In this document: positions 14,300 to 63,689 of the stretch, piece after piece
Numbering within the stretch: position 1 is the first letter of the stretch
Layout: every line of letters begins with the position of its first letter
DNA from: Neelides folsomi
Lineage: Eukaryota; Arthropoda; Collembola; Neelipleona; Neelidae
Length of the DNA: 64,000 bases
Assembly (NCBI GenBank): GCA_034687125.1
Contig: JAQGBZ010000096.1
Location: 1-64,000 of the forward strand
Direction: 5' to 3'
The notes under the pieces: generated by a model
What the model was told of the DNA's origin: nothing
What the model saw: the letters and a program-made list of their open reading frames with translations, nothing else
Databases searched by the model: none
Translations under genes and position numbers: made by a program

Positions 14300-17200
14300 A
14301 TGACATCCTACGACGAGTCGATCGAAGTCCTCGATGGGGAAGAAATAAAAACACCCAAGAAGGAGGAGAAAGAAATGAGCGAACGACGACCACGGACGGC
14401 AAAACTCACCTCTGCTAACCTTCGACCTCCCCCTTCGAACCAGGAAAGCCGGCCAACATCACGACGAACGGACACAATGGTGAGTCATGAATTGTTACAA
14501 ATAATTGGTTTGTGCATTGCAATGCAATGTGTTCTTTTGTTCCCCTTGTTTGATTGAATCATCCAAATCCAGGAAGCAGATGAACGGAATTTAAGCCCGG
14601 AAACGACAGATGTGGAAGGCGAGGAAGAAGAGGAAGAGTCGCCACCCCCGCAACTCGATGGGTAAAAATTTATTTAAATTCACCAATAACTCACAAATTC
14701 ACATCGTTCACATCGTCCATATGGCTCCGTTTTCACTTTCATGCGTCTTTTTTACACTTTCACACGCACACATTCACTATGTACAGAATGTACATACACG
14801 CACTGTATTTTAAAACTCCAATTAATTTCCCGTAATGCTCAGTCTGGAAATGAAACCGACAGTTATTTTATTTTACATTTATATTATATATTATGTAATA
14901 ATATGATACAATATAATATTACCAAATATACCAAAAGTTCAAATATCTGATATCGGTAATAATTATAATAGTTTATATAGTTCAAATAGTTTTCCAAGAT
15001 AAACATCAATTATTTTAACAACAATAGAGAGATGTACAGCAATCATCTCCAGGTCCAAATGCAACGTTCGAACGATTGTTACGATGGGGTTCCGAGCAGC
15101 AGCGGAAGAACTTACATCCTTCCGGACAACTACGCCCCTGACACGTCTACAACTGAAGAAGACGACGAAGGATTTTGCAGAGAAGAATTGGAGGCGGTTA
15201 TGAGGAAATATACAGGGCCAAATGGAATGACCCCACTAGGTCAAGAGGAATACCCCGTTGAGTACTTTGAAGGAGATGATAAGATTTATGAATTTACAAC
15301 TGCCCAAGAGGTTTTTTATTTTAAAAAACCTACCCTTGTTAAATTATTAATCCTTAATTAATCCACTTTTTGTATTATTATTTTATGTGTAACATTTCTC
15401 CTTTTTGTTTACTTTATTTACTGTTTATTTTCTTATGTTTAATCAATGCATACTTTCTTCACATTCAAATCTGTCGTTAATTAGGAAGAGGAATTTGTGT
15501 CGAGAAAGAGAAAATTGCGAGAAATTCAGCTTGAAAGATTGAGGAATATCACGTTTAAACGTTTGCGAGCTTTGTCACCAACCCCAGGAGTTTTTACCAC
15601 AAATCGGTTTTTATTTGCACTTACTTTTAATTTTTACAGCAATTCAGTCCAATTCTAATCAGTTTGTTTAAACTAATCATCATCACAAAAAGAGCTAATT
15701 ATTTATTGTTTTTATTTGATTTTAGGGCGTATAATCCAAATGACTACGAAGGACTCAACGTCTCACCAGAAGTTCGGGAAATATTCGGCTACATCCAGGC
15801 GTAAGGAGATTCAATAATATATTTTCCAAATGTCGACATTTATTTATTTTATTTTATCTTATCTCAGAGTTTATCTCCCTTTCCTTCGTTTGTTCAGACA
15901 TCGGATCTGAATAATCTCACCGATGACCCTTTTATTTGTCAAAATGGAAAGTTGAGATTATTAACATATGACGACAACATGGCTAATGTCGTCCGTTCTT
16001 TTATATGCTTTTCGTGTATGTCTGCCATAATTGTATTTTTCGTGATGATTTCTACATCCCAGTTCCAACCAATTATTATCTCTCTACCTTCAATTGTACA
16101 AGCAATTATACAAGCAATTGTATTCCGCCTCTATTGACTTTTTCCTCCCCCCAGTCTTCAATCAACAGATTTTAAAAGTTGTTTCAACACATGAAAAATC
16201 TCTGTATTGATATTGGATCTATGAGGTTCTTCCCAATGAATTATTCAATTGGGAAATGAAAGGTTATGTGAGGTTAACTACGTATGGAATCAATTCAGCT
16301 CCTCCTTTACATACATTAACATACTTAAATATTTAGCAGCTTTATCTCTCTTTTCTAACGCTATTTTAAACCACATTGAATATTAAATTGAATATCAAAT
16401 CAATGCTTTTTTTATATTCCAATGCTTTTGCCCAATTTTCAGCTACACGCCGGCTGACACCAACGGGTTCCTTGATGTCAAGCTGAAGCCTTTCATACCG
16501 GAGTATTACCCAAGCGTCGGGGACATCGATGGGTTCATCAAGGTCCTAGATGAAGATTTGTTCGATGAAGCACTTGGGGTGAAATATTTGGACGAAGCTT
16601 CAACGTTTCAATCGGATCCTTCGGTTCTTGATTTGAGACTCCGCTCAATGGCAAAACAATCCTCTGCCAAAGCCGCCCTCGTCAAAAAAGTCGAAAATGT
16701 TGCAAAGAACGGGAAAGTGATTGAGAATTGGATTAAGGACATTTCTGACTTGCATAGATCAAAACCCTCTCCTTCTGTTTATTACTCAAAGTGAGGATTT
16801 TAAATTTAACGCTAAGTTATATCTACTAAATACATACACGCATACATAATACATATACTATATTTTAGTAATACTGTATCATTTTGTCTTATATTTATAC
16901 TTTAAGACGTTAAAGGCTTTTAATGCAGTGAGAGGATTTGCCATATAAAAGTAAAAGTGATGGTATTTATAATGTAATGAAAATGATATACCAATATAAC
17001 ATTATTACATTTATTTTATCACTCGTAAAATTCAGTCAAGGATATTTTTATTTTCTTCGGTATTAAAATGAATTATTAATGTTGTTGGTGAGCCTATGAG
17101 CAATAAAGCACATTAGGAAATGTGTGAAACTGATGGGAGTTTTGGAACTGATTTAAATATACTTATGCGAGGATATTTAATTTCCTCTTTGATAAAGATA

Positions 17201-51768: not shown

Positions 51769-52845
51769 TTAAGCAGCGGCCATTTGAATGTTAATGTTGT
51801 GTTCTTTCGGGAATCCTCCGTACTTGCTGGTGCTCTTCAACGAAGACGAGAGCGGGGCGGGGAATTTACGCCGTTCTTCCATTCTTGAACTCGTCATGGT
51901 CGAAGTGCTTCCAATGTTGCTTCCCATGTTGTTGCTGATGCTGCTGTTCTGAATCGGAATTCGCTTCTCGGTGATGGCAGGTAACGAAGTTTTGACACGG
52001 GGAGCCGTAATGACCAGAACTCCGTCAGAAGACAAATTGCACTCGACTGATTCGGGTCGGACATCGTCGGGGAGTTGGTACTTGCGAGAGAATTGGCGAG
52101 AGACGAAAGATTTATTCGCATCTCCGTCCTTCTTCTCCTCGTGCTTTCCTTCCACAACAAGGAAATTGTCAACAGTCTTCACTTCAACTTCCTTTGGACC
52201 AAATTGTTGAACTTCCAACATGACCTGCAAAATTAAAATATTTAACGTTATTCAAATATTTATTACAATTTTTAAATTTTTAAAAATTCTCATTTATAAA
52301 AATACTCAATTATCTAAATATTTTTTATCACGAATATTCGAATAAAAAAGTGATTGTTGAAATCAACTATATAATTTTTAATAATAATTAATTTTAATAA
52401 TAATTAATTTATTATTTTTTACCTGGAACTTGTCGTCGTCGTATTTCATTTCTGATGGGAATCCATTGGACATCATTTGCATTTCTTTAAACGGTTCCCA
52501 ATTGTTCTCAAACTTCATCATCGTATTGAAGTTGCTATTTCCATTGAACGAATTATTGTTGCTGTTGAATGGCACCATCGTTCCTCCTCCGTTCATGGTG
52601 TTGTTTCCAGAATTCAACGTACTCGTTCTCGAACTCGAGTTTGTCACCGACCGGTTGTTCCCAATGTTCCCAAGCGTGCTGTTCCCGAAAGTTGAATTTC
52701 CCAGGTCTGAATGGGAGTTGGAAGTTGACTCGAAGAACTTCATGGTTTCTTGAAATTGTTTCTCCATCATTTTCCGACAGTCTTCGAAGAAGGGATCACG
52801 GAAGAAGGAGTCTCGAGAGTTGAGTGGTAATGTGGACAGAGCCAT
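51769..52845 (-). CDS. Small heat-shock protein A (alpha-crystallin domain), long Asn/Ser-rich N-terminus
   Basis: Two exons on the minus strand, 52423-52845 and 51769-52224, giving 292 aa, long for an sHSP. Residues 1-141 include an amphipathic start (FFRDPFFEDCRKMMEKQFQE) and a 90-residue Asn/Ser/Gly/Thr-rich stretch. The alpha-crystallin domain follows the intron: VMLEVQQFGPKEVEVKTVD, LVVEGKHEEKKDGD, SFVSRQFSRKYQLPDDV and the hallmark LSSDGVLVITAPR. IPIQ in the tail resembles the I-x-I/V oligomer motif. sHSPs are ATP-independent holdases. The gene is divergently oriented to sHSP-B and shares with it an intron at the identical residue of the domain start. A GAAnnTTC heat-shock half pair lies about 430 bp upstream (53272-53279). 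ATG 52845 is the only sensible start. Confidence 0.92.
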
Positions 52846-55400
52846 GTCAGTAAGTTCTTAAGTAAGAATGTCTTCAACCTACACCTTCGTCTCAGGCCAA
52901 CTGAATAGCAGAGGTGTGGGGTGAGAGAGTTAAATACGGTTCAGCCTCAGGTTGTGGGCGGGAGCTAAATGGAGAACAGCTCCTGAGTCACACTTTTCCA
53001 CTCGTGGGCGATTTTGCCACAAATCCGCACAAATTCACGTCTCCTCACCTCTTTCAAGTCGTAGGTTGCAAAAACGAGTATTTGATTGAGAGCCACACAC
53101 GTAAATCCTCCCCCACAGGAACAATATCACAAATTCTCAAAGTTCCTCTCTTGGGCACAACAAAGTCGAGGATGACTCCATTCCTATTTAAATTATTTAA
53201 TACACGAGTACTCGTATTATGGCACCTAATTGAAATAGAGCAAAAAACAAATATTTTTCTACAATCCTCCAGAATGTTCAAAACGAAGAGGAGTGAAGGC
53301 GGACGGATGCGCGGAAATGAACAATGTGGAAATGGAGACCTTCAACTTCAACTAAATAAATTAATCGACTCTCTAAATACGCGTTGAAAGTAAACAAAGT
53401 TTTTGCGCTCCTTCCTATATAAGTATCTGTATTTATTTTAATGGTCTTAATAGTAATAGCCAGACAACACATTCATCAAATCTGGGATTTTACACAGAGA
53501 CCCAATGAGATCATAAATAAGGCATGGAGTAATAGGAAGTGCTTTGTTGCTTTATATGGCCATTCTCTCAACACTTCGTTATCCTCATTAGTTCACGCTC
53601 TGTTGGATATTCCCTTAAATATTAAAATCATCTAACGACTCGTATCTGATTCGTGGATCGAGCAGGAAATTACAATTAGGATGTTATTGTTATTCTTTTT
53701 ACTTATTATTGTTATTATTGAAAATGGATGTAATGAGATTAAGATTAACGATAAGCCTTCATTTTTATTAATTTTTATTTTTGTATAAAAAATATTGACC
53801 AAATTGAGTAATCCCCAAATGTGCTTTTAGACTGAATGAAAAAACTTGGAATTTGGCAAAGTATGTCAATTTTGCATGGGCGGATGGTTAGTCGTTGGTG
53901 GTGAGATCAGGATATTTCTTTTATTTCTAATATCGATTAACTTTAAGTCCAATTAAAGTGTTTGGGTGATGAATCATCATTTTAAATGGATCGTGTCATT
54001 ATAATCATATGTACATTATTTATATAAGTATGGTATAACTATAGTAAATAATAAATTATGAATTTATATTATGATTAGAGTCGTAAATCATTTTTTATCC
54101 ACAGGGAATTATACCTTAAAATTACACAGTTAAGCCATTTTTATTAATATATAAATGCAAAGTGTTAAAAGATGGAATGCAACTGCATGTCTATGCGTTA
54201 AAGTGCAAATAAATTATAATTAAACTTGCGTGTTTGTTGTAGCTTTTACTTTATGGTTCATATCTGCAGCATATGCTTTTAAGTGTTCTAAGCCTCATAA
54301 AATTTAAATTCTTGTTTAGTGTTGTAACAAGCCATTGAACAGATTTTCTCTAATTTGTATGAGCCTGTAAAGCAGGGAGAATTATTAGCCAGGAAGATTG
54401 GAGTGTTTAAATCTTTAAATAATAATTCTGCTTCTTTTCCGTCTGACGTTTCTTCTTGTTAGTTAATATCCCAATTCATAAGCCCTGTAAGTATTGAGGG
54501 GAAGTGGAAGGTGAATTAATGGACGTGAGATGATGTATGGTAATGGCAAGATCTATTTTTGCGAGTGCGATCATAGGAGTGTAATTTGGGCGAGCGTGGA
54601 GAAGGTCAATGTGTCCTACACCACTTCAGAGGACAGAACACAAAAAACCAAATCTCAATCCTCATCAGAGCCAAAATAAACAACTTCTCATCTTCATCTC
54701 TCCGATAGGGGAAAATGAAATGACTCTCACAGAAAAACTCCTTAATAACACTCAAAATTATTCTTTTTTCTTATCGGCATAATTGACCCTTAAGCTAATT
54801 ATTGTAATAAGAATACATATAGTCATATCAATTACAATTACAATAGATATACAATTACAATCATATCATGTGCATAAATCAAAGAATTGGCTTTAAGTAA
54901 TTGGCTTCATTCTTCGTAGGAAATCTTAATCTGGCATATAATATAAGTATCATACCTACATATTTTATTTATGATATACCTAGGTATATTATGATATAAG
55001 CATTAAAATGCTAAATTGGGATGTTCTACGATTTATGTGTTGTATTTTTTAAATGTGAAATACAACACATTGTGACACTAAATAATAAATAAAGTTTAGT
55101 TTAGTTATTCCAAGTAGATACTAATAGGTATTGTTTTTAGCTTACCTAAGCGAATTCTAGTTTAATTTAATAATACATTTAAATAAAGTGCACTTTTAGG
55201 TGGAATTTTGTGAGTCAATAATATTTTTAGATTTGAAGAAAATGAATTTCTTTCATTTTAACCCATTTTAGCTACGCCGCAATGTGAATGAAGGAGTAAC
55301 GAAATTACTAAAGTACATAGGTATGTAAACGGATGACTAATGTTCCATACCCGAAACAGGGTGAGGAGCTTTGCGGGCCTTCTGACAATGAGTAGGCGTT
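52846..55400. other. Intergenic region between the divergent sHSP genes
   Basis: About 2.5 kb of shared upstream DNA. A GAATGTTC heat-shock-type dyad (53272-53279) lies on the sHSP-A side. A perfect 13-bp hairpin (55035-55047 with 55058-55070, 10-base loop) lies nearer sHSP-B. No gene is supported; the open frames at 52914-53387 (+) and 53054-53281 (-) have no motif. Confidence 0.45.
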
Positions 55401-55533: not shown

Positions 55534-55630
55534 GTAGATCCAGAAAGAGTGGGGCACATTCTTATCAAACTCTCCAACCGACTCGAATCGGCCCGTCGTT
55601 TCAAACACTCAACACATTTCTCGATGTCAA

Positions 55631-55742
55631 GTGAGGTTGGTGAAATTCCTCTTCGTCATTTTACCCAACATTTATCTTCAATTTTCACTCATTCGTGAAA
55701 GTTTTTCGCTTGTGAATTCAAATTCTCTCTAATTTTTTCCAG
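55631..55742 (+). other. Probable 5'-leader intron of sHSP-B
   Basis: Donor GTGAGG at 55631 and acceptor TTTTTTCCAG ending at 55742, immediately before ATG 55743. An upstream ATG at 55624 would be spliced into a second frame that overlaps the main start for 19 codons including the stop. Confidence 0.5.
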
Positions 55743-56456
55743 ATGTCTTTCCGCCGTATGTACCGAGATCCTTTTTACGGGCGGTCAAATAACTGGTGGT
55801 CCTCCGGATTTGACGTTCCAGCAAGAATTTTTGACCAGAATTTCGGGCTTGGACTCTGCGACGATGATTTGCCAACTTTTTGTCGTGGAGTTCGACCAAG
55901 GGGATCAAAGGAAACCGGATTTTCTGAAGTGAAGAACGATATTGAAAAATTTGAGGTATGAAATTTTTTAATTAATTTATTTAATTAAATCTTTAACTTA
56001 TTTTAACTAAATATGTCAGTGTATTTAATTGTAGTAATGTTCATAACTAGGATATTCTTTCTAAATTGTCTTTTTCTGTAGGTTTTGTTGGACGTTAAAC
56101 AGTTTACCCCTGAAGAGTTGAATGTGAAGACGGTTGACAAATACATCGTAATCGAGGGCAAACATGAGGAACGAGCTGATGAACATGGATTAATCACCAG
56201 GAACTTCTGCCGAAAATATCTTCTTCCTGAAGACGTTCGTGCCGACTCAGTGAACTGTTCTTTCTCTTCCGACGGAGTTCTCACCATCACGGCCCCAAGG
56301 ATTCGCCCTCAAGAGGACACCAAGGCCGAAAGGCCAGTTCAGATCCAAGTTACTGGAACTCCAGCTACAGCTCGAGGAACCACTGGTGGATCTTCTCCCA
56401 CGAAGGGAAAGGAGACCAATATTCCCGTCAACAATGAGCAAACAAAGACCAATTGA
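55743..56456 (+). CDS. Small heat-shock protein B (alpha-crystallin domain)
   Basis: Two exons, 55743-55955 and 56082-56456, giving 195 aa. A 71-residue aromatic/Arg-rich N-terminus (MSFRRMYRDPFYGRSNNWW) leads into a typical alpha-crystallin domain: VLLDVKQFTPEELNVKTVD, IVIEGKHEERADEHG, FCRKYLLPEDV and the hallmark FSSDGVLTITAPR. The tail is hydrophilic, Thr/Lys-rich, with VQIQV similar to the I-x-I/V motif. Typical metazoan sHSP size, similar to Drosophila Hsp20-27 and lethal(2)essential-for-life types. The single coding intron lies at the first residue of the domain (KFE|VLLDV), exactly as in sHSP-A (KFQ|VMLEV), so the pair are old duplicates that kept the intron. The promoter has HSE-like and TATA motifs. 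Confidence 0.94.
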
Positions 56457-56992
56457 GTCAATTTAAAGGAAGTCGTCCCACGCTTAATGGATTTCATCAA
56501 CGACGCACATTAATTGTTTAAATTCTTTATGTAAATCGGATATTTTCTTATTTCATGTATTATATAAATTATTAAATTCAATCGTGATCCATCTTGTTAA
56601 ATTGTAAATCCTAATTTATTTGATGTTGTACCTAAATCTGAAATAAGAATACTTTCATTGTAAGAAATTTATCATTAAATACAGGATCATAAACAGAAAT
56701 AAGCATTAGGAATTGGGAAGTTTGCTCCCTAAAATTGACATGCATTTGGGGCTGAATGAGACATTGAACAAAGCCGCATATCGCGAACTGAGAACGTTTT
56801 AAATGTCTAGGAAGGGGCGACTTGAGATTAATAGTTTGTTTTGATTTTCTCTTTACGTTTCCTACTTGGAGATCATCGATTTGACTCCATCAGCGTTAAA
56901 ATCTTAAATATCAATACAATAGTAATTTTTTACCTTTAATCAATAATTAAAAGTTACAAGACGAATGAAGCCGTGGGAGGGTTTTTGAGCCC
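56457..56992. other. sHSP-B to B9D2 spacer
   Basis: AT-rich 3' untranslated region of sHSP-B followed by the B9D2 upstream region. A seven-codon uORF (ATG 56965, TGA 56986-56988) ends four bases before the B9D2 ATG. Confidence 0.5.
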
Positions 56993-57967
56993 ATGGCCGA
57001 ACTTTACATTATTGGACGACTCGAGAGTGGAAAAGGATTTGGGGCTACGGGACTCTTTGCAAAATTCTCTTTTCACACAGGTATAACAAGTTCAATGTGC
57101 GATTAAATATAATTAATGATCAGTTGGCTATGCTTATGTTAATTAAATTGCCAACGTAAAAGTGTCTAATATTATTATATTGATATTTTAACATTAATCT
57201 TTATTTAACAAAATGTAATCGGAAATAATACAGTGTTTTAAATAGACCATTGTGTACATTTTCAGAGTTAATAAAATTCTTAAAGATTTTCTTTTTTACT
57301 CATGCAAAAATATAGGAAGCGGGTGGAAAAAAGTAGAAGGCAAAGCAGAAGGGCAAACTCAAGTTGACACTCCGCTGTACAATCAAGAGGCTCAGTGGTC
57401 CCATCCAATTGATTTACACTTTGCGACCAAAGGCATTTTAGGTATTCTTTACTTACTAAAGTTAATCACTGTCCCAATTTATAAAATTTGTCTTTAATTT
57501 ATAAACCAACTAACAATTTCCTCCAGGCTGGCCGAAACTCCTCGTTGAAGTTTGCAGACAAGACGAATTTGGTCGGAGTGATTTAGCTGGATACGGAATC
57601 TGTCACGTTCCGGCTTCTCCTGGTCACTACAAATTAGAAGTTCCCACTTGGAGACCTTCAGGTTGATCGAACATTTAATTATGGATATAGATATAATATA
57701 GATATAAAAATAATTATATCGAAGAGAAACTTTTAATGACCCTTTAATTACTTTAACTTAATTACTTTAACTTAATTTGTAGGAAGCCACAAAGACGAAA
57801 TTCTTCGTTATTTTATTGGAGGCTCACGAGAATTGTCTGAATTGGATCTCGTGGTCAATTCGAGTGAACGATATCAACTGAAGACGATTCCCTCGGGAGT
57901 CGTCTCAATACACCTTGGGATTATCACGAGAAACTTTGACAAGTTCGGAGTGGAAGTTTCAACATGA
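56993..57967 (+). CDS. B9D2: B9D2 transition-zone protein (MKS complex)
   Basis: Four exons: 56993-57080, 57316-57441, 57527-57661, 57783-57967, giving 177 aa (human 175). B9D2, with B9D1, MKS1 and tectonics, builds the diffusion barrier at the ciliary transition zone. The B9 domain covers the whole protein, with near-identity blocks: [64 protein letters not shown] and [15 protein letters not shown] 56993 gives the conserved [10 protein letters not shown] start. The stop TGA (57965-57967) overlaps the ATG (57964-57966) of tectonic, a gene of the same complex, so this looks like the first cistron of a two-gene unit. Confidence 0.96.
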
Positions 57968-60329
57968 ACTTTCTCCTTTGCTTTCTCCTCTTCCTTCCAT
58001 TTGGGTCACTTCATGAATTTGACCCAGAACCAGAGTCAACTATGACCCCACAAACAACGACCACTGCAGGAAAAAATGGCAATAATTCCCAAACTACAAT
58101 AAGCCCAACAACTTCAGCCACCGGCATCAACGGCTCACAAACGACCTTAAATACGACTACCGTTACAAATGATACAATATCAACAGAAAAGCCAAAAAAG
58201 CCAAACAGAGAACCAAATAATTTTCATTGCATTTGCGATTTGACTGTAAAAATTCAAAAACAACCAAGCCAAACAAAATTATAAATATAAATATATATTT
58301 TTTATTTAGTTAAACGGATGCGACATTAATTGCTGTTGTGACCCCGACTGCTCCGCAAGGAACCGGAAGGTTTTTACAGATTGCCTTGAAGAAGATTACT
58401 TGAAGTCGGAAATTGACGAGGATAAGAAATGTTACAAAACTGAGTTTCTCTTTCGAAACAACACACCGTTCCTGCTTCAACAAAAGACCAAAAGTTTATT
58501 TTGTATTGTCAACGACAATTACAGGAAGAAGAAAAGATATGAATCCCCAAAGGTTTATTTTAATTAGAACATCTTTAGAAAATAAATAATTTATAATCAC
58601 AAAACATGCAACAATGCAGTGTTTCAATCTATTAAAACGAATAAATGCTTGAATTTAATACTTTTTAAAATATAAAGGTATCGGCGATAAAATCAGCCTT
58701 TGCGTATGAGGAAGCTCTGAAGGAAAAGAAATTCTCTTGGAACACAATCTTCCCTCATGAAGAAACGATTGAGAATTCTACCTATAAGTTTGGAAGCCAA
58801 ATTTGGTCTTTGAAAGAGTCCGAAGGAACTTTGAAATTATTTCCTTTCAGTAATTTTTAAATACCTTACATGCCTTACAAGCCTTACAATTTTAGTCATA
58901 TTTTTATGCAGGTATAAGAACAGGTATAAGACAGGTATAAGAAAAGTGACATGAGCTATTATAGGTTAGGTATAAGAGATAGTGATAAATCAATAGTAAT
59001 TAGTTCTTTTTTTTTTAAATATTTAGGCCTCCCATCTTCATACGATAGTCGCCAATGTGTTGCATCCGAAGGGGTCAAATTTCTCAAGCCAATCTTAACT
59101 TCCTGCACAATTCTTCTTCCAGCAATTTCATCTTGTGAGGAGATAGAAGAATTGAATGTGAATTCTTACATCCAAAATCTCAGTTTCCTCTCTACAGGAA
59201 TCTTTTCAAATTCCACACAACCAAATGTCACATCAATTGTTCTCTGTGATCCTCGAAATCTCACTGGTTGCTCTCCAATTACAAATTTCCCATCACCCAA
59301 GCTGGAAAAGAATGTTTGCTCCAACGTGTTGAAATCCCTCACTTTCTTTTTTGTCCACGAAGGGATTGAAGGCTTGAAAGAAACTCTCGTGAGAGCAACA
59401 TTTGATAAATTGCAGAAAACAACGTCAGCTTTAGAATTAAGTCTTTCCTTCTCAGCTCAATTCTTATGGGGAGATGAAGGAGAAGTTGGGATTTGGACGC
59501 GGAGTGGAAACCCGGGTTATTTGGTTGGAAAACCAATTATAATGGGGAATCGGAAAGAGGATGAGAAAATTGCTCTTAATGATCATCAACATTATATGAA
59601 GATTCACGGGTCAGAATGTTCGACCAGGAATGAAGTTTTGTTCGGGTATAGCCACAGAGCAGTTTGTTTAATTAGTTTGAAAAGATTTTTATCATGTGAA
59701 GCCATTGAGAAAGAAATTGCCATTTTGCTGCTTGGCATTATTCCACAAAATGTGACCAATCGGTAAAGTTTCTAATCAATGACTTTTATATTGGATTAAA
59801 ATATTAATTATTAATTTTTATGTCATTTAAAGTTTTAAATTGATTTAAGTTATAAAAGAAATGATTTTTATTGAATTTTAGATATGTTTCATCATTTGGA
59901 AATCCTTCAAAGAAAGTTTCAAGTGAATGGATCCAAATTGAAGCTTCCGGGTTGCCATTGAGTGATGGGAAATCGTTCAATCCGGTTGAAAAAGGATGCG
60001 ATTTGAAAACATCTTTAAGAATTCGGATCATTTTTTCTTATGTTGGATCTGTCCATTTCCCACAAGCAAAGATCCTAAGAGTTTTAATGGACATGGGAGG
60101 AGACAGGAAAATCCCACCTGGAAATCGCACCGAGTTCTTGAGAATTGGAACTACTGTGGACTTTGAGGACATGACTGGACCATCAGTGGAAAAGCGACTT
60201 CCTTTGCCAACCATCACCCTCTCGCTTCCACACAACTTCTTTTATCCGTTTTCACCATCAAAGGCCAATTTCGTCCATGTCAGGTTCATCCCATGTGTTT
60301 GTACATTTCTTTTTCTTATCATTTTTTAA
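57964..60329 (+). CDS. tctn: Tectonic family protein (MKS complex)
   Basis: Five exons: 57964-58245, 58310-58552, 58678-58849, 59027-59762, 59882-60329, giving 626 aa (human TCTN1-3 about 590-700). Tectonics are secreted or membrane-anchored transition-zone proteins that work with B9D1/B9D2/MKS1 in ciliogenesis and Hedgehog signalling. A signal peptide ([17 protein letters not shown]) leads, then a Thr/Asn-rich linker, the family's Cys cluster (CICDLTLNGCDINCCCDPDCS, about residues 89-109), the DUF1619-type body with SGNPGYLVGKPIIMG (about 393) and a hydrophobic C-terminus (VCTFLFLIIF) suited to membrane anchoring. The start is chosen because only it gives a signal peptide; it overlaps the B9D2 stop as ATGA, leaving no separate intergenic promoter. 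Many N-glycosylation-type NxT/S sites agree with an extracellular protein. Confidence 0.9.
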
Positions 60330-60841
60330 AGTAATTGTATTTGTGCCTAAAGTTTTAAAATACAACTAACGTAATTTTAATGATATTGCGATTTCACCAT
60401 ATTCCCGTAAATGATAAGTGAATTAACTAAATAAGATTTGAGTGCATAATTTGCATTCATTCATACATTTTGGTAACATAACCGTTTAAGAAATTTCCAT
60501 TTAATACGGGATTTAGACATTATCGTTATTTTTAATTTAAATTAAGATCATTATTATATCAAAAACTTTTTACTTTATAATATACAATTGTCAATTATAA
60601 CATTATAAGCACAGGCATCGGTTCAACAAAAATTACTCGTCATGCAATATTTATAATTAATAAACATTTAAATACCTATAAGTAATTCATCATGTTTTAG
60701 TAAAAACAAATTCATAATAATAATAACTCGCAAATTCATGATTAATAACATTAAAATCAAGTTAACTAATTAGTCCTTAAATACAAATAATTAAACTTGT
60801 CATTTAATTACCTATTTTATACATGGTAATAATGGAATACT
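60330..60841. other. Convergent spacer tectonic / XRCC4
   Basis: 512 bp of AT-rich 3' untranslated sequence from both genes. No gene or element recognised. Confidence 0.6.
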
Positions 60842-62108
60842 TCAAGAAAAGAAAAGTTGCTCCAAGAGCTGCGATCCGCTTTGATCCAGATCAACGTTCC
60901 CAACTTCCTCATCCCTTGATCTCTTTGGCGAAGGTGACCGGTCGTTTTCTAATGGAGGTGGAGAACTTCTTTTATCTGCTTTTCTCAAAGTGTTATTTAG
61001 CTTCCTTGGACCTCTTTCAAATTGAATGTCCAATAATTGAATTTCCTGCGATGAGTCCAAATCCGTTTCACTGTCGTCTAAAATCCTCATGGCGGTCCGG
61101 CGCTTCTTTGGCACAATTTTCTCTTTACTTTTCGCTTTACTTCTTTTGGTGTTTTGCGAGGATTCTTCTTCAGTTTCTACAAGATATGCAGCGTCTCCTT
61201 CGTCAGTCTCCTCAGGTGGTGAGGAATCTTCAATGTCGATGACTTCAGCTGGCGGTTTTGCTCCTAAATCTTGGATCTTCTTTTCAAGTTCTTTTAAATA
61301 TTCTTTCTTAGATGCCAAGCACCGTTCAAATGCACGATATAAAAAGTCTTCTCTTTTGTTTTTTTCTAGTTGAAGATCTCGAAGTGCTGTGGCATGCTTG
61401 CGATTTTTCTCACGTTCTGCTTCAACTTCTTGTTTGAGCTTTTTATTTTGCGAATGAAGATTACGAATGGAGTCGATCGTATTTTGTAGAATATTGGAAA
61501 GTGCGTCGACGTTGTTACTCTACAAAAAAGGTTTAAAATGAAATAAATATTTATTACAAAGTTAAATGCAATTGTAATTTCATAATTAAAAATAATTACA
61601 AGTTGATTTATTTTAAATAATCCAATTTCATTTCTTTCTCCTTTTTCAGATTTCCAAAATTGCAAGAGTTCCTCTGTGTTTAACGAACTATTGTTAAGTA
61701 AAAGATCAACACCGAAATCCGTTTCAGTCAATAGCAAGCATTTTTTTAAATCTTCAATGTCAGTCTTCTCTTTGCTCCTCTTTGATATATCAAAATCGCT
61801 CTTCACCTACAAATAGTAATTACAAATATAAATAACAGGTATGATTTTAAAGAGAATCAAGTAATATTTTAATATTTTAATGCACTTTTAATTTTTACTA
61901 AGCCATTTAATATTTTTCATTATTTTATAATAGAAATATTGGAGCTGACCTCGGCATTAAATGTCGTAATTTTATCTTCTGAATCAAAAACAATTATTTG
62001 GACTTGAAGCTCTTTTTCTCCCAAATTGGAAATTGAGTAGAGTTTGCTCTCTTTGTTTTTTCTTACTTTTTCGTAATTTAGACCAAGATTAATTAAAGCG
62101 TTGGCCAT
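60842..62108 (-). CDS. XRCC4: XRCC4-like non-homologous end-joining protein
   Basis: Three exons on the minus strand: 61950-62108, 61600-61806, 60842-61519, giving 347 aa (human 336). XRCC4 is the scaffold and stabiliser of DNA ligase IV in non-homologous end joining. The N-terminal third is strand-rich like the XRCC4 head (LGEKELQVQIIVFDSEDKI...IEDLKKCLLL, then LQFWKSEKGERNEIGLFKI). A long helix follows from about residue 123 (SNILQNTIDSIRNLHSQNKK ... FLYRAFERCLASKKEYLKEL), matching the coiled-coil stalk that holds the ligase IV site. The C-terminal 140 residues are acidic/basic, Ser-rich and probably disordered, with KPPAEVIDIEDSSPPEE and basic KKRR/KRSR patches usable as nuclear signals. 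Family identity rests on architecture and partial similarity, since XRCC4 diverges fast; XLF, PAXX or another XRCC4-superfamily member are alternatives. Confidence 0.75.
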
Positions 62109-62396
62109 TCTCAACAAAATAATTTGTTCTTCTATTATAAAATTAAATTTAATTGTAGATTAAAATAGATTTATGATAGTATCATTATTTTATAATGTAA
62201 AACTATGACAATGTAAAATTATAAAATATTTGCCCTAAGCATCACACTAAAATAAGGACTGGATGTTCGCGGGTAACCCAAAAATTCGCATATTCAATAT
62301 AAAAAGAAATAAATCTGGACTCGACAGGATTTTGGACTTTCTTTCTGGGGCTGGAGAAATCTTCTTTGAAAAAGAAAGTCATTTAAATTAATTAAA
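62109..62396. promoter_or_regulatory. 288-bp bidirectional promoter XRCC4 / cyclin K
   Basis: The ATGs of XRCC4 (-) and cyclin K (+) face away from each other across only 288 bp, so both promoters must lie here. No TATA box is evident. On the plus strand a 42-codon uORF (62263-62391) ends five bases before the cyclin K ATG, if the cyclin K transcript starts upstream of it. Confidence 0.6.
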
Positions 62397-63689
62397 ATGC
62401 CTCGGTGGTTTTACGAGAAAAAAGAACTTCGTCAGAGTCCATCCGTCCATGCCGGGATGGACCCTGAAATGGAGGCGAGATACAGAAGAGAAGGAGCCCG
62501 CTTCATAATTGATCTTGGATCTGCAATGAAGTTGACGCTAACGACAATGGCCACTGGAGTTGTCTACTTCCATAGATTCTACATGGTCCACTGTTTTCAG
62601 TCCTTTTCTCGTTATGTAAGTTTTCAAAATTAATTAATTAAACTTTAGAATTAACTAATTATATTGAATATTGATTAATTATTTTATATTGGTTCAGCCC
62701 ACTGCCTGCGCTTGTCTCTTCTTGGCAGGGAAAGTTGAAGAGACGCCGAAGAAGTGTAAAGACATGATCAAGACGGCCAAGACTCTTCTCCCAGAGTCAA
62801 AATTTGCCCAATTTGGCGATGATGAGAGAAATTCATTGGTATTTTTATTTTAAAATAATTTCTACAATTTCGATTAAAGTCAGCAATTTGATTAATTGAT
62901 TACATAATACATTTATTTAATTTTGTGACCTCGTTGAATCTGGATGTAATGATGAATAATTTACAGGAAGAGGTTATGACACTCGAGCGAATTCTTCTTC
63001 AAACAATCAAGTTTGAGCTCCAAGTCGAGCACCCCTATACGTTCCTCCTTAAATACGCCAAATCCCTGAAAGGAGATAAAAACCGATTGCAGAAGATGGT
63101 CCAAATGGCATGGACATTTATCAACGACAGGTATTTTATAAATAAATAATTAAATTATCCAATAAAGACATTTCAACGTAATTAAAACATATCTAACCGT
63201 TTCAGCTTCTGCACAACACTCTGTCTTCAATGGGAGCCTGAGATCGTTGCGATCGCTCTCATGTATTTAGCAGGGAAGTTGAGCAAGTTTGAAGTTGTTG
63301 ATTGGAACGGCCGTAACTCGGATCATCTCCGTTGGTGGGACATGTTTGTCAGTGACATGAGCATCGATCTCCTAGAAGATATTTGTCATCAAGTATTGGA
63401 TTTGTATGCTCAAACCCAAACTCAACCACCAGGCGAATCTCCTCCTCAGCCACCTCCGACCCCAACACCAAATACAAACGCCCCATCACCATCGCCCGTT
63501 CGACCCCTATCAGCAGCAAGCACTCCGACAACTCCATCATTTTATCAAGGATTTAATCAACCTCCACCTCCTTTGCCACCGCAAGGATACCATCCAAGAA
63601 CTCCAACATTTCCACCATATCCACCTTCCTATCCACCTCTCCCACCATCAAGATTTCTTGCACAACCACCACCACCTCCACCAAAATAA
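62397..63689 (+). CDS. CycK: Cyclin K (transcriptional cyclin, CDK12/13 partner)
   Basis: Four exons: 62397-62615, 62698-62838, 62967-63130, 63206-63689, giving 335 aa (human CCNK 580). Cyclin K activates CDK12/CDK13, which phosphorylate the RNA polymerase II C-terminal domain during elongation and support expression of DNA-damage-response genes. Both cyclin folds match closely: [101 protein letters not shown] and [13 protein letters not shown]. The tail (from about residue 270) is a Pro/Thr/Ser-rich low-complexity region ending in PPPPPPK, much shorter than in vertebrates. Exon 2 ends DDERNSL, a small divergence from the family's DDPKEEV join; the phase supports it. It is head-to-head with XRCC4. 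Confidence 0.94.

Follow-up and report, generated by a model that had tools for sequence, protein, structure and literature searches.

Described dicistronic loci

In fly genome release 6.04, FlyBase annotates 159 dicistronic gene pairs (PMC4528330). Fly loci with only polycistronic transcripts have stop-to-start distances from -34 to 319 nt, and a functional relation is known for only "a few" of the pairs whose products are not similar to each other (PMC4528330). According to the same authors, most fly dicistronic pairs fail the requirements of a scanning mechanism.

In some loci the second cistron is reached by leaky scanning. Drosophila stoned (stnA/stnB) and Snapin have a first cistron that is short of AUGs and a first start that is off consensus (PMC11892635, PMC3372440), a signature credited to Wall et al. 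2005 (as cited in PMC11892635). In both cases the second cistron is attenuated by in-frame AUGs in the first, and lmgB, whose upstream partner lmgA has three more in-frame AUGs, is not efficiently translated (PMC3372440). The same signature has been described for green algal bicistrons (Duenas et al. 2025; PMC11892635), in which an AUG-poor, shorter first ORF with a weak start precedes a longer second ORF. The spacing in these algal loci is short, with medians of 40-183 nt.

Caliciviruses and influenza B virus have the TURBS element, which in influenza B is about 45 nt long (PMC5972666). These viral loci combine a stop-start overlap with the motif UGGGA and a structured segment upstream.

Results

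B9D2 and tectonic overlap by four nucleotides

Two neighbouring genes were rebuilt from the sequence of the window, i. e. the whole stretch of 64,000 nt that was analysed (Table 1). Both gene models and the overlap between them are direct observations. The spliced coding sequence of the first gene comprises 534 nt in four coding exons and yields a protein of 177 aa. This protein is a member of the B9 family: its residues 4-164 match the whole Pfam B9-C2 profile (1-166 of 166; E 9.6e-52, above the curated cut-off). Going by its similarity to vertebrate B9D2, we take it to be B9D2 and not B9D1 or MKS1. The PDB search with B9D2 returned two retroviral nucleocapsid/Gag chains (E 0.041 and 0.076), which were judged to be chance matches, and a search of viral contigs for relatives gave three pattern matches, none of which was confirmed. 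Tectonic has a spliced coding sequence of 1881 nt in five coding exons, which yields 626 aa with Pfam matches to TCTN_DUF1619 (E 1e-19) and DUF1619_N (E 3.8e-13), both above the curated cut-off.

Table 1. Features of the B9D2-tectonic locus (positions in the window)
Feature	Position	Strand	Remarks
B9D2 gene, first cistron	56993..57967	+	spliced model rebuilt from sequence; Pfam B9-C2
B9D2 coding exons	56993-57080, 57316-57441, 57527-57661, 57783-57967	+	three GT..AG introns
B9D2 start codon, putatively weak context	56993..56995	+	gagcccATGG: C at -3, G at +4
Possible 7-codon upstream ORF	56965..56988	+	ends 4 nt before B9D2 ATG; applies if transcript begins further upstream
Tectonic gene, second cistron	57964..60329	+	spliced model; Pfam TCTN_DUF1619, DUF1619_N; hydrophobic N-terminus
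Tectonic coding exons	57964-58245, 58310-58552, 58678-58849, 59027-59762, 59882-60329	+	four GT..AG introns
ATGA overlap	57964..57967	+	tectonic ATG 57964-57966 over B9D2 TGA 57965-57967
UGGGA, core of viral TURBS motif 1, weak lead	57916..57920	+	48 nt upstream of tectonic ATG
Structured RNA segment before overlap	57844..57967	+	predicted MFE -38.3 kcal/mol

The original prediction, made from the same DNA, had claimed that the B9D2 stop and the tectonic start overlap, that both exon models are consistent from end to end, and that the two genes leave no intergenic room. All of this holds. The introns, three in B9D2 and four in tectonic, are of the GT..AG type, both proteins have Pfam matches, the coding overlap consists of the 4 nt ATGA, and the distance between the genes is thus -4 nt. 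From 56456 to 62397 there are three more gaps between coding sequences (536, 512 and 288 nt); the -4 nt stands out from them, though the sample is tiny. A B9D2-tectonic fusion protein is ruled out, since B9D2 closes with a stop codon and tectonic is read in a different frame.

The claim that ATG 57964 is the sole start giving tectonic a signal peptide was likewise upheld. Upstream, the tectonic frame is shut by a TGA at 57937-57939, and the 8 codons (24 bases) between this stop and the ATG include no ATG, CTG, GTG, TTG or ACG. In this frame, residue 27 is the next Met and already lies past the hydrophobic stretch. The putative signal peptide was judged by Kyte-Doolittle hydropathy (mean +2.56 for residues 3-14). 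Hence 57964 is the only start with a hydrophobic N-terminus, barring an upstream exon spliced there. Tectonic may have such a further exon that is not seen in the DNA, from which transcript ends cannot be read.

Directly upstream of B9D2 lie two HSP20 genes in opposite orientation, 51772-52857 (-) and 55624-56456 (+), about 2.8 kb apart, each with a Pfam HSP20 match on one stretch. An XRCC4-like gene, named by eye, is located at 60842-62108 (-); its exon 60845-61519 has no Pfam match. The window has a third ciliary gene at a distance of about 40 kb from the B9D2-tectonic pair: IFT46, with an exon at 16387-16791 (+) that matches Pfam IFT46_B_C (E 4.4e-38). At the left edge of the window, an open frame of Gly-Ser repeats (SGSGGSGG...; 1-807, +) continues off the edge. 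A scan of the window for X-boxes was uninformative: it gave 75 matches to a loose consensus, 12 to a worm-type one and none to a strict one, and of the matches listed, just one falls between the start of HSP20 and the B9D2 ATG, at 56305 within the HSP20 coding sequence.

The B9D2 coding sequence is free of internal ATGs

The most telling feature of the locus, missed by the original prediction, is the lack of ATGs in the B9D2 coding sequence. When spliced, it contains exactly two ATGs in any frame, its own start and that of tectonic, with none between them; this too is directly observed. Four nulls gave an expectation of 3.5 to 8.7 other ATGs, and the three of them that are based on permutation or simulation gave P0 values of 0.001 to 0.004. 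The expected number was 3.5 in synonymous permutations, which keep the protein and the codon use (P0 0.004), 5.7 in a first-order Markov model (P0 0.0033), 4.8 if codons were used as in nine further coding stretches of the window (P0 0.001), and 8.7 at the raw ATG rate of these nine stretches (102 in 6210 nt). Seven of the nine have a Pfam match above cut-off; the remaining two, an XRCC4-like and a coiled-coil stretch, have none and were counted as coding by their length. Three of the stretches were long enough to be cut into overlapping slices of 527 nt, and none of the 757 slices was free of ATG (minimum two).

The depletion is specific, yet not unique. Of the 64 trinucleotides in B9D2, ATG ranks lowest by z, but TAA is nearly as depleted (0 versus 4.2 expected, P 0.006). 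Among the control stretches, the XRCC4-like one, which is the longest exon of its gene, is also poor in ATG (3 versus 6.1 expected, P 0.02), whereas P was at least 0.18 for the other eight. B9D2 has no internal Met, where 2.8 would be expected at the rate of its neighbours (33 in 2070 codons; P0 0.06). Possibly, B9D2 proteins are poor in Met regardless of any tectonic downstream. The hypothesis of AUG avoidance was framed post hoc, once the sequence had been seen.

Where the ATGs are lacking bears on the mechanism. Exons 1-3 contain no ATG beyond the B9D2 start (3.1 expected, P0 0.0084), and these exons are located at least 181 nt (181-530 nt) upstream of the overlap. The part of exon 4 before 57964 is also free of ATG, which is unremarkable at an expectation of 0.43 (P0 0.57). 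The B9D2 introns have 8 ATGs in total, and another 8 are found in the 536 nt from the HSP20 stop to the B9D2 start. Neither a promoter just before tectonic nor reinitiation at the ATGA gives a reason to avoid AUGs 181-530 nt upstream; scanning ribosomes do.

This is what speaks against a tectonic promoter within B9D2, an alternative also named by the original prediction: it would lie in an intron or in exon 4, with genes that overlap but are not translated from one mRNA. Such an internal promoter would be in line with the fly dicistronic loci, where monocistronic alternatives from downstream promoters are common (PMC4528330). An exon 4 without ATG before 57964 befits a leader, albeit not beyond chance. 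Perhaps a noncoding first exon is spliced onto the exon 4 acceptor at 57783; the acceptor of B9D2 intron 3 scores well (6.9). Simple TATA and initiator strings are present in B9D2 but have little meaning. However, an internal promoter leaves the ATG-free exons 1-3 unexplained, and we regard it as rather unlikely.

Start contexts and the 5' leader

The start contexts can be read directly from the DNA. Tectonic has an A at -3 (tttcaacATGA), whereas B9D2 lacks a purine there. A purine at -3 is present in five of the eight start candidates listed, too small a set to fix a consensus for the species. In the genomic sequence, the starts without it are those of B9D2 and of two HSP20 candidates, one of which sits right after a possible intron. 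The comparison of B9D2 with tectonic suggests a difference in the direction that fits leaky scanning, despite the G at +4 of B9D2. The 5' leader of the B9D2 mRNA may include the ATG at 56965, which opens the short upstream ORF listed in Table 1.

Splice acceptors and polyadenylation signals

Spliced-leader operons occur in several animal groups. In such an operon, trans-splicing just 5' of tectonic would turn one pre-mRNA into two separate capped mRNAs. Before the tectonic ATG there are two AGs, with exon starts at 57931 and 57951, whose scores of 0.3 and 0.8 fall in the same range as those of the weakest true acceptors. With each left out in turn, three of the eleven true acceptors score -1.0, -0.6 and 1.3, the best exon 4 AG having 0.8 bits; since true acceptors score that low, a weak cis or trans acceptor in exon 4 is conceivable. 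Yet the best exon 4 AGs score below nine of the eleven, and an acceptor serving the tectonic ATG would sit within the B9D2 coding sequence and cost B9D2 its stop. We therefore consider trans-splicing highly improbable. Rfam at gathering thresholds gave no match in the 64,000 nt, which says little about a spliced leader because leader genes may sit elsewhere.

Downstream of the B9D2 stop, tectonic intron 2 has an AATAAA at 58581 and another at 58640; the one after these, at 60659, lies past the tectonic stop. With these positions, a B9D2-only mRNA ending in tectonic intron 2 is possible, and a shared 3' end is also possible.

Sequence and predicted structure upstream of the overlap

One dicistronic mRNA could also yield tectonic by termination-reinitiation at the ATGA with the aid of a TURBS-like element or, less likely, through an internal ribosome entry site. 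Stop-restart signals of the form AUGA are known, and the core of TURBS motif 1 reads UGGGA (PMC5972666), which here is placed 48 nt before the tectonic ATG, a distance similar to that in the viral elements. However, 660 of 5447 coding positions (12%) have a UGGGA within the preceding 80 nt, which is the chance rate of UGGGA alone. The 124 nt up to the overlap have a predicted fold more stable than that of synonymous permutations (P 0.0075), and only one of 153 tiles of 120 nt from both coding sequences, a tile overlapping the same segment, folds lower. Compared with dinucleotide shuffles the z is only -1.83, and 9 of 200 shuffles fold as well. In the predicted fold UGGGA is mostly paired (opening cost 3.5 kcal/mol), and TURBS motifs 2 and 2* were not identified. 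Reinitiation past long ORFs is weak, the second product being about 82-fold lower in one studied human case (PMC5972666), and it has no need of AUG avoidance far upstream. The predicted structure and the UGGGA upstream of the ATGA are thus a suggestive lead for reinitiation, but as the source of tectonic we consider reinitiation or internal entry unlikely.

B9D2 exon 4 contains an RNA hairpin of 9 bp with a 4-nt loop (57883-57904, +), which precedes the tectonic ATG by about 60-80 nt and belongs to the most structured segment of the B9D2 and tectonic coding sequences.

Discussion

In published dicistronic mRNAs, leaky scanning is marked by a first cistron poor in AUGs and a weak first start. 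Leaky scanning is the best explanation for this locus. That B9D2 and tectonic are expressed from one spliced dicistronic mRNA, with tectonic reached by leaky scanning, is what we prefer over all rivals, with somewhat better than even confidence. That there is a dicistronic mRNA at all, whether read by leaky scanning, by reinitiation or by internal entry, we consider likely. These gradings are a matter of judgement, and all come from the DNA of one genome.

According to the preferred explanation, a single spliced mRNA would begin upstream of B9D2 and end beyond tectonic. The majority of ribosomes would initiate at the B9D2 AUG, which has no purine at -3. Some would pass it, meet no further AUG over about 530 nt and initiate at the tectonic AUG with its A at -3. 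The purpose could be a constant ratio between the two partners of the MKS transition-zone complex.

The original prediction had proposed one transcript for both genes. This part gains indirect support: from the ATG-free first cistron and its start without a -3 purine we infer co-transcription, since the lack of ATG in exons 1-3 (P = 0.008) would be left without a reason if tectonic had a transcript of its own. Its proposal that tectonic is translated by termination-reinitiation has the suggestive features described above on its side but fits worse than leaky scanning, which it had not considered. Leaky scanning in turn has the TAA depletion, the ATG-poor XRCC4-like stretch, the G at +4 of B9D2 and the post hoc origin of the hypothesis against it. 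Also against it are the two HSP20 start candidates that lack a -3 purine, a Met content that may be low in B9D2 proteins generally, the ATG at 56965 in a possible leader, the AATAAA sites in tectonic intron 2 and the view of the FlyBase authors on most fly pairs (PMC4528330).

A more far-reaching version, which we put forward tentatively, is that selection keeps the whole first cistron free of AUGs and that the weak B9D2 start sets the ratio of the MKS partners, perhaps with a cellular TURBS-like reinitiation signal at the ATGA as a backup, and that the arrangement is perhaps old. The fly orthologues presumably have the consecutive gene numbers CG42730 and CG42731. This numbering could mean that the genes are adjacent in the fly too, a hint at a conserved arthropod transition-zone operon.

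The locus resembles stoned and Snapin, whose second cistrons are reached by leaky scanning, in its AUG-short first cistron and perhaps in a first start off consensus (PMC11892635, PMC3372440). Unlike stoned and Snapin, the putative B9D2-tectonic dicistron has products that share one complex and cistrons that overlap by 4 nt. With the green algal loci it has in common a short AUG-depleted first ORF with a probably weak start, a longer second ORF and a short spacing, -4 nt as compared with the algal medians (PMC11892635). In contrast to these, it is an animal pair with introns and a single locus known from DNA. Mocs2/CG42503 and other "rule-benders" of FlyBase are likewise functionally linked neighbouring cistrons, with spacings down to -34 nt (PMC4528330), but the fly functional pairs encode different proteins. 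The calicivirus and influenza B TURBS loci share the stop-start overlap, the UGGGA at a similar distance and the structured segment upstream (PMC5972666). Their counterpart in B9D2, however, has its UGGGA mostly paired in the predicted fold and no identified motif 2 or 2*, and AUG avoidance far upstream, a feature of B9D2, is no part of the viral mechanism as presented there.

PMC5087661 assigns B9D2 and tectonic to one MKS module, in agreement with the original prediction; the word "cistronic" is absent from the text of this fly MKS paper. Our literature search, which did not extend to the supplement listing the fly dicistronic pairs, found, among the papers listed, no account of a B9D2-tectonic dicistron and no paper on CG42730/CG42731; the fly pair may already be annotated as dicistronic. 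The view that functional pairing in such an overlap is unusual for a metazoan needs to be divided. The overlap itself is less rare than this implies, given the 159 fly pairs, but functional pairing is indeed known for only "a few" non-similar pairs (PMC4528330). B9D2-tectonic is probably another case of a known kind of dicistronic gene, unusual in that its partners share one complex.

Joint action of the two products is known for few animal dicistronic genes. Should a single mRNA indeed encode both B9D2 and tectonic, then how strong one start codon is would determine in what ratio two components of the ciliary gate are made. Other genomes can be searched for the same signature, a coding sequence that is AUG-free and lies right upstream of another gene.
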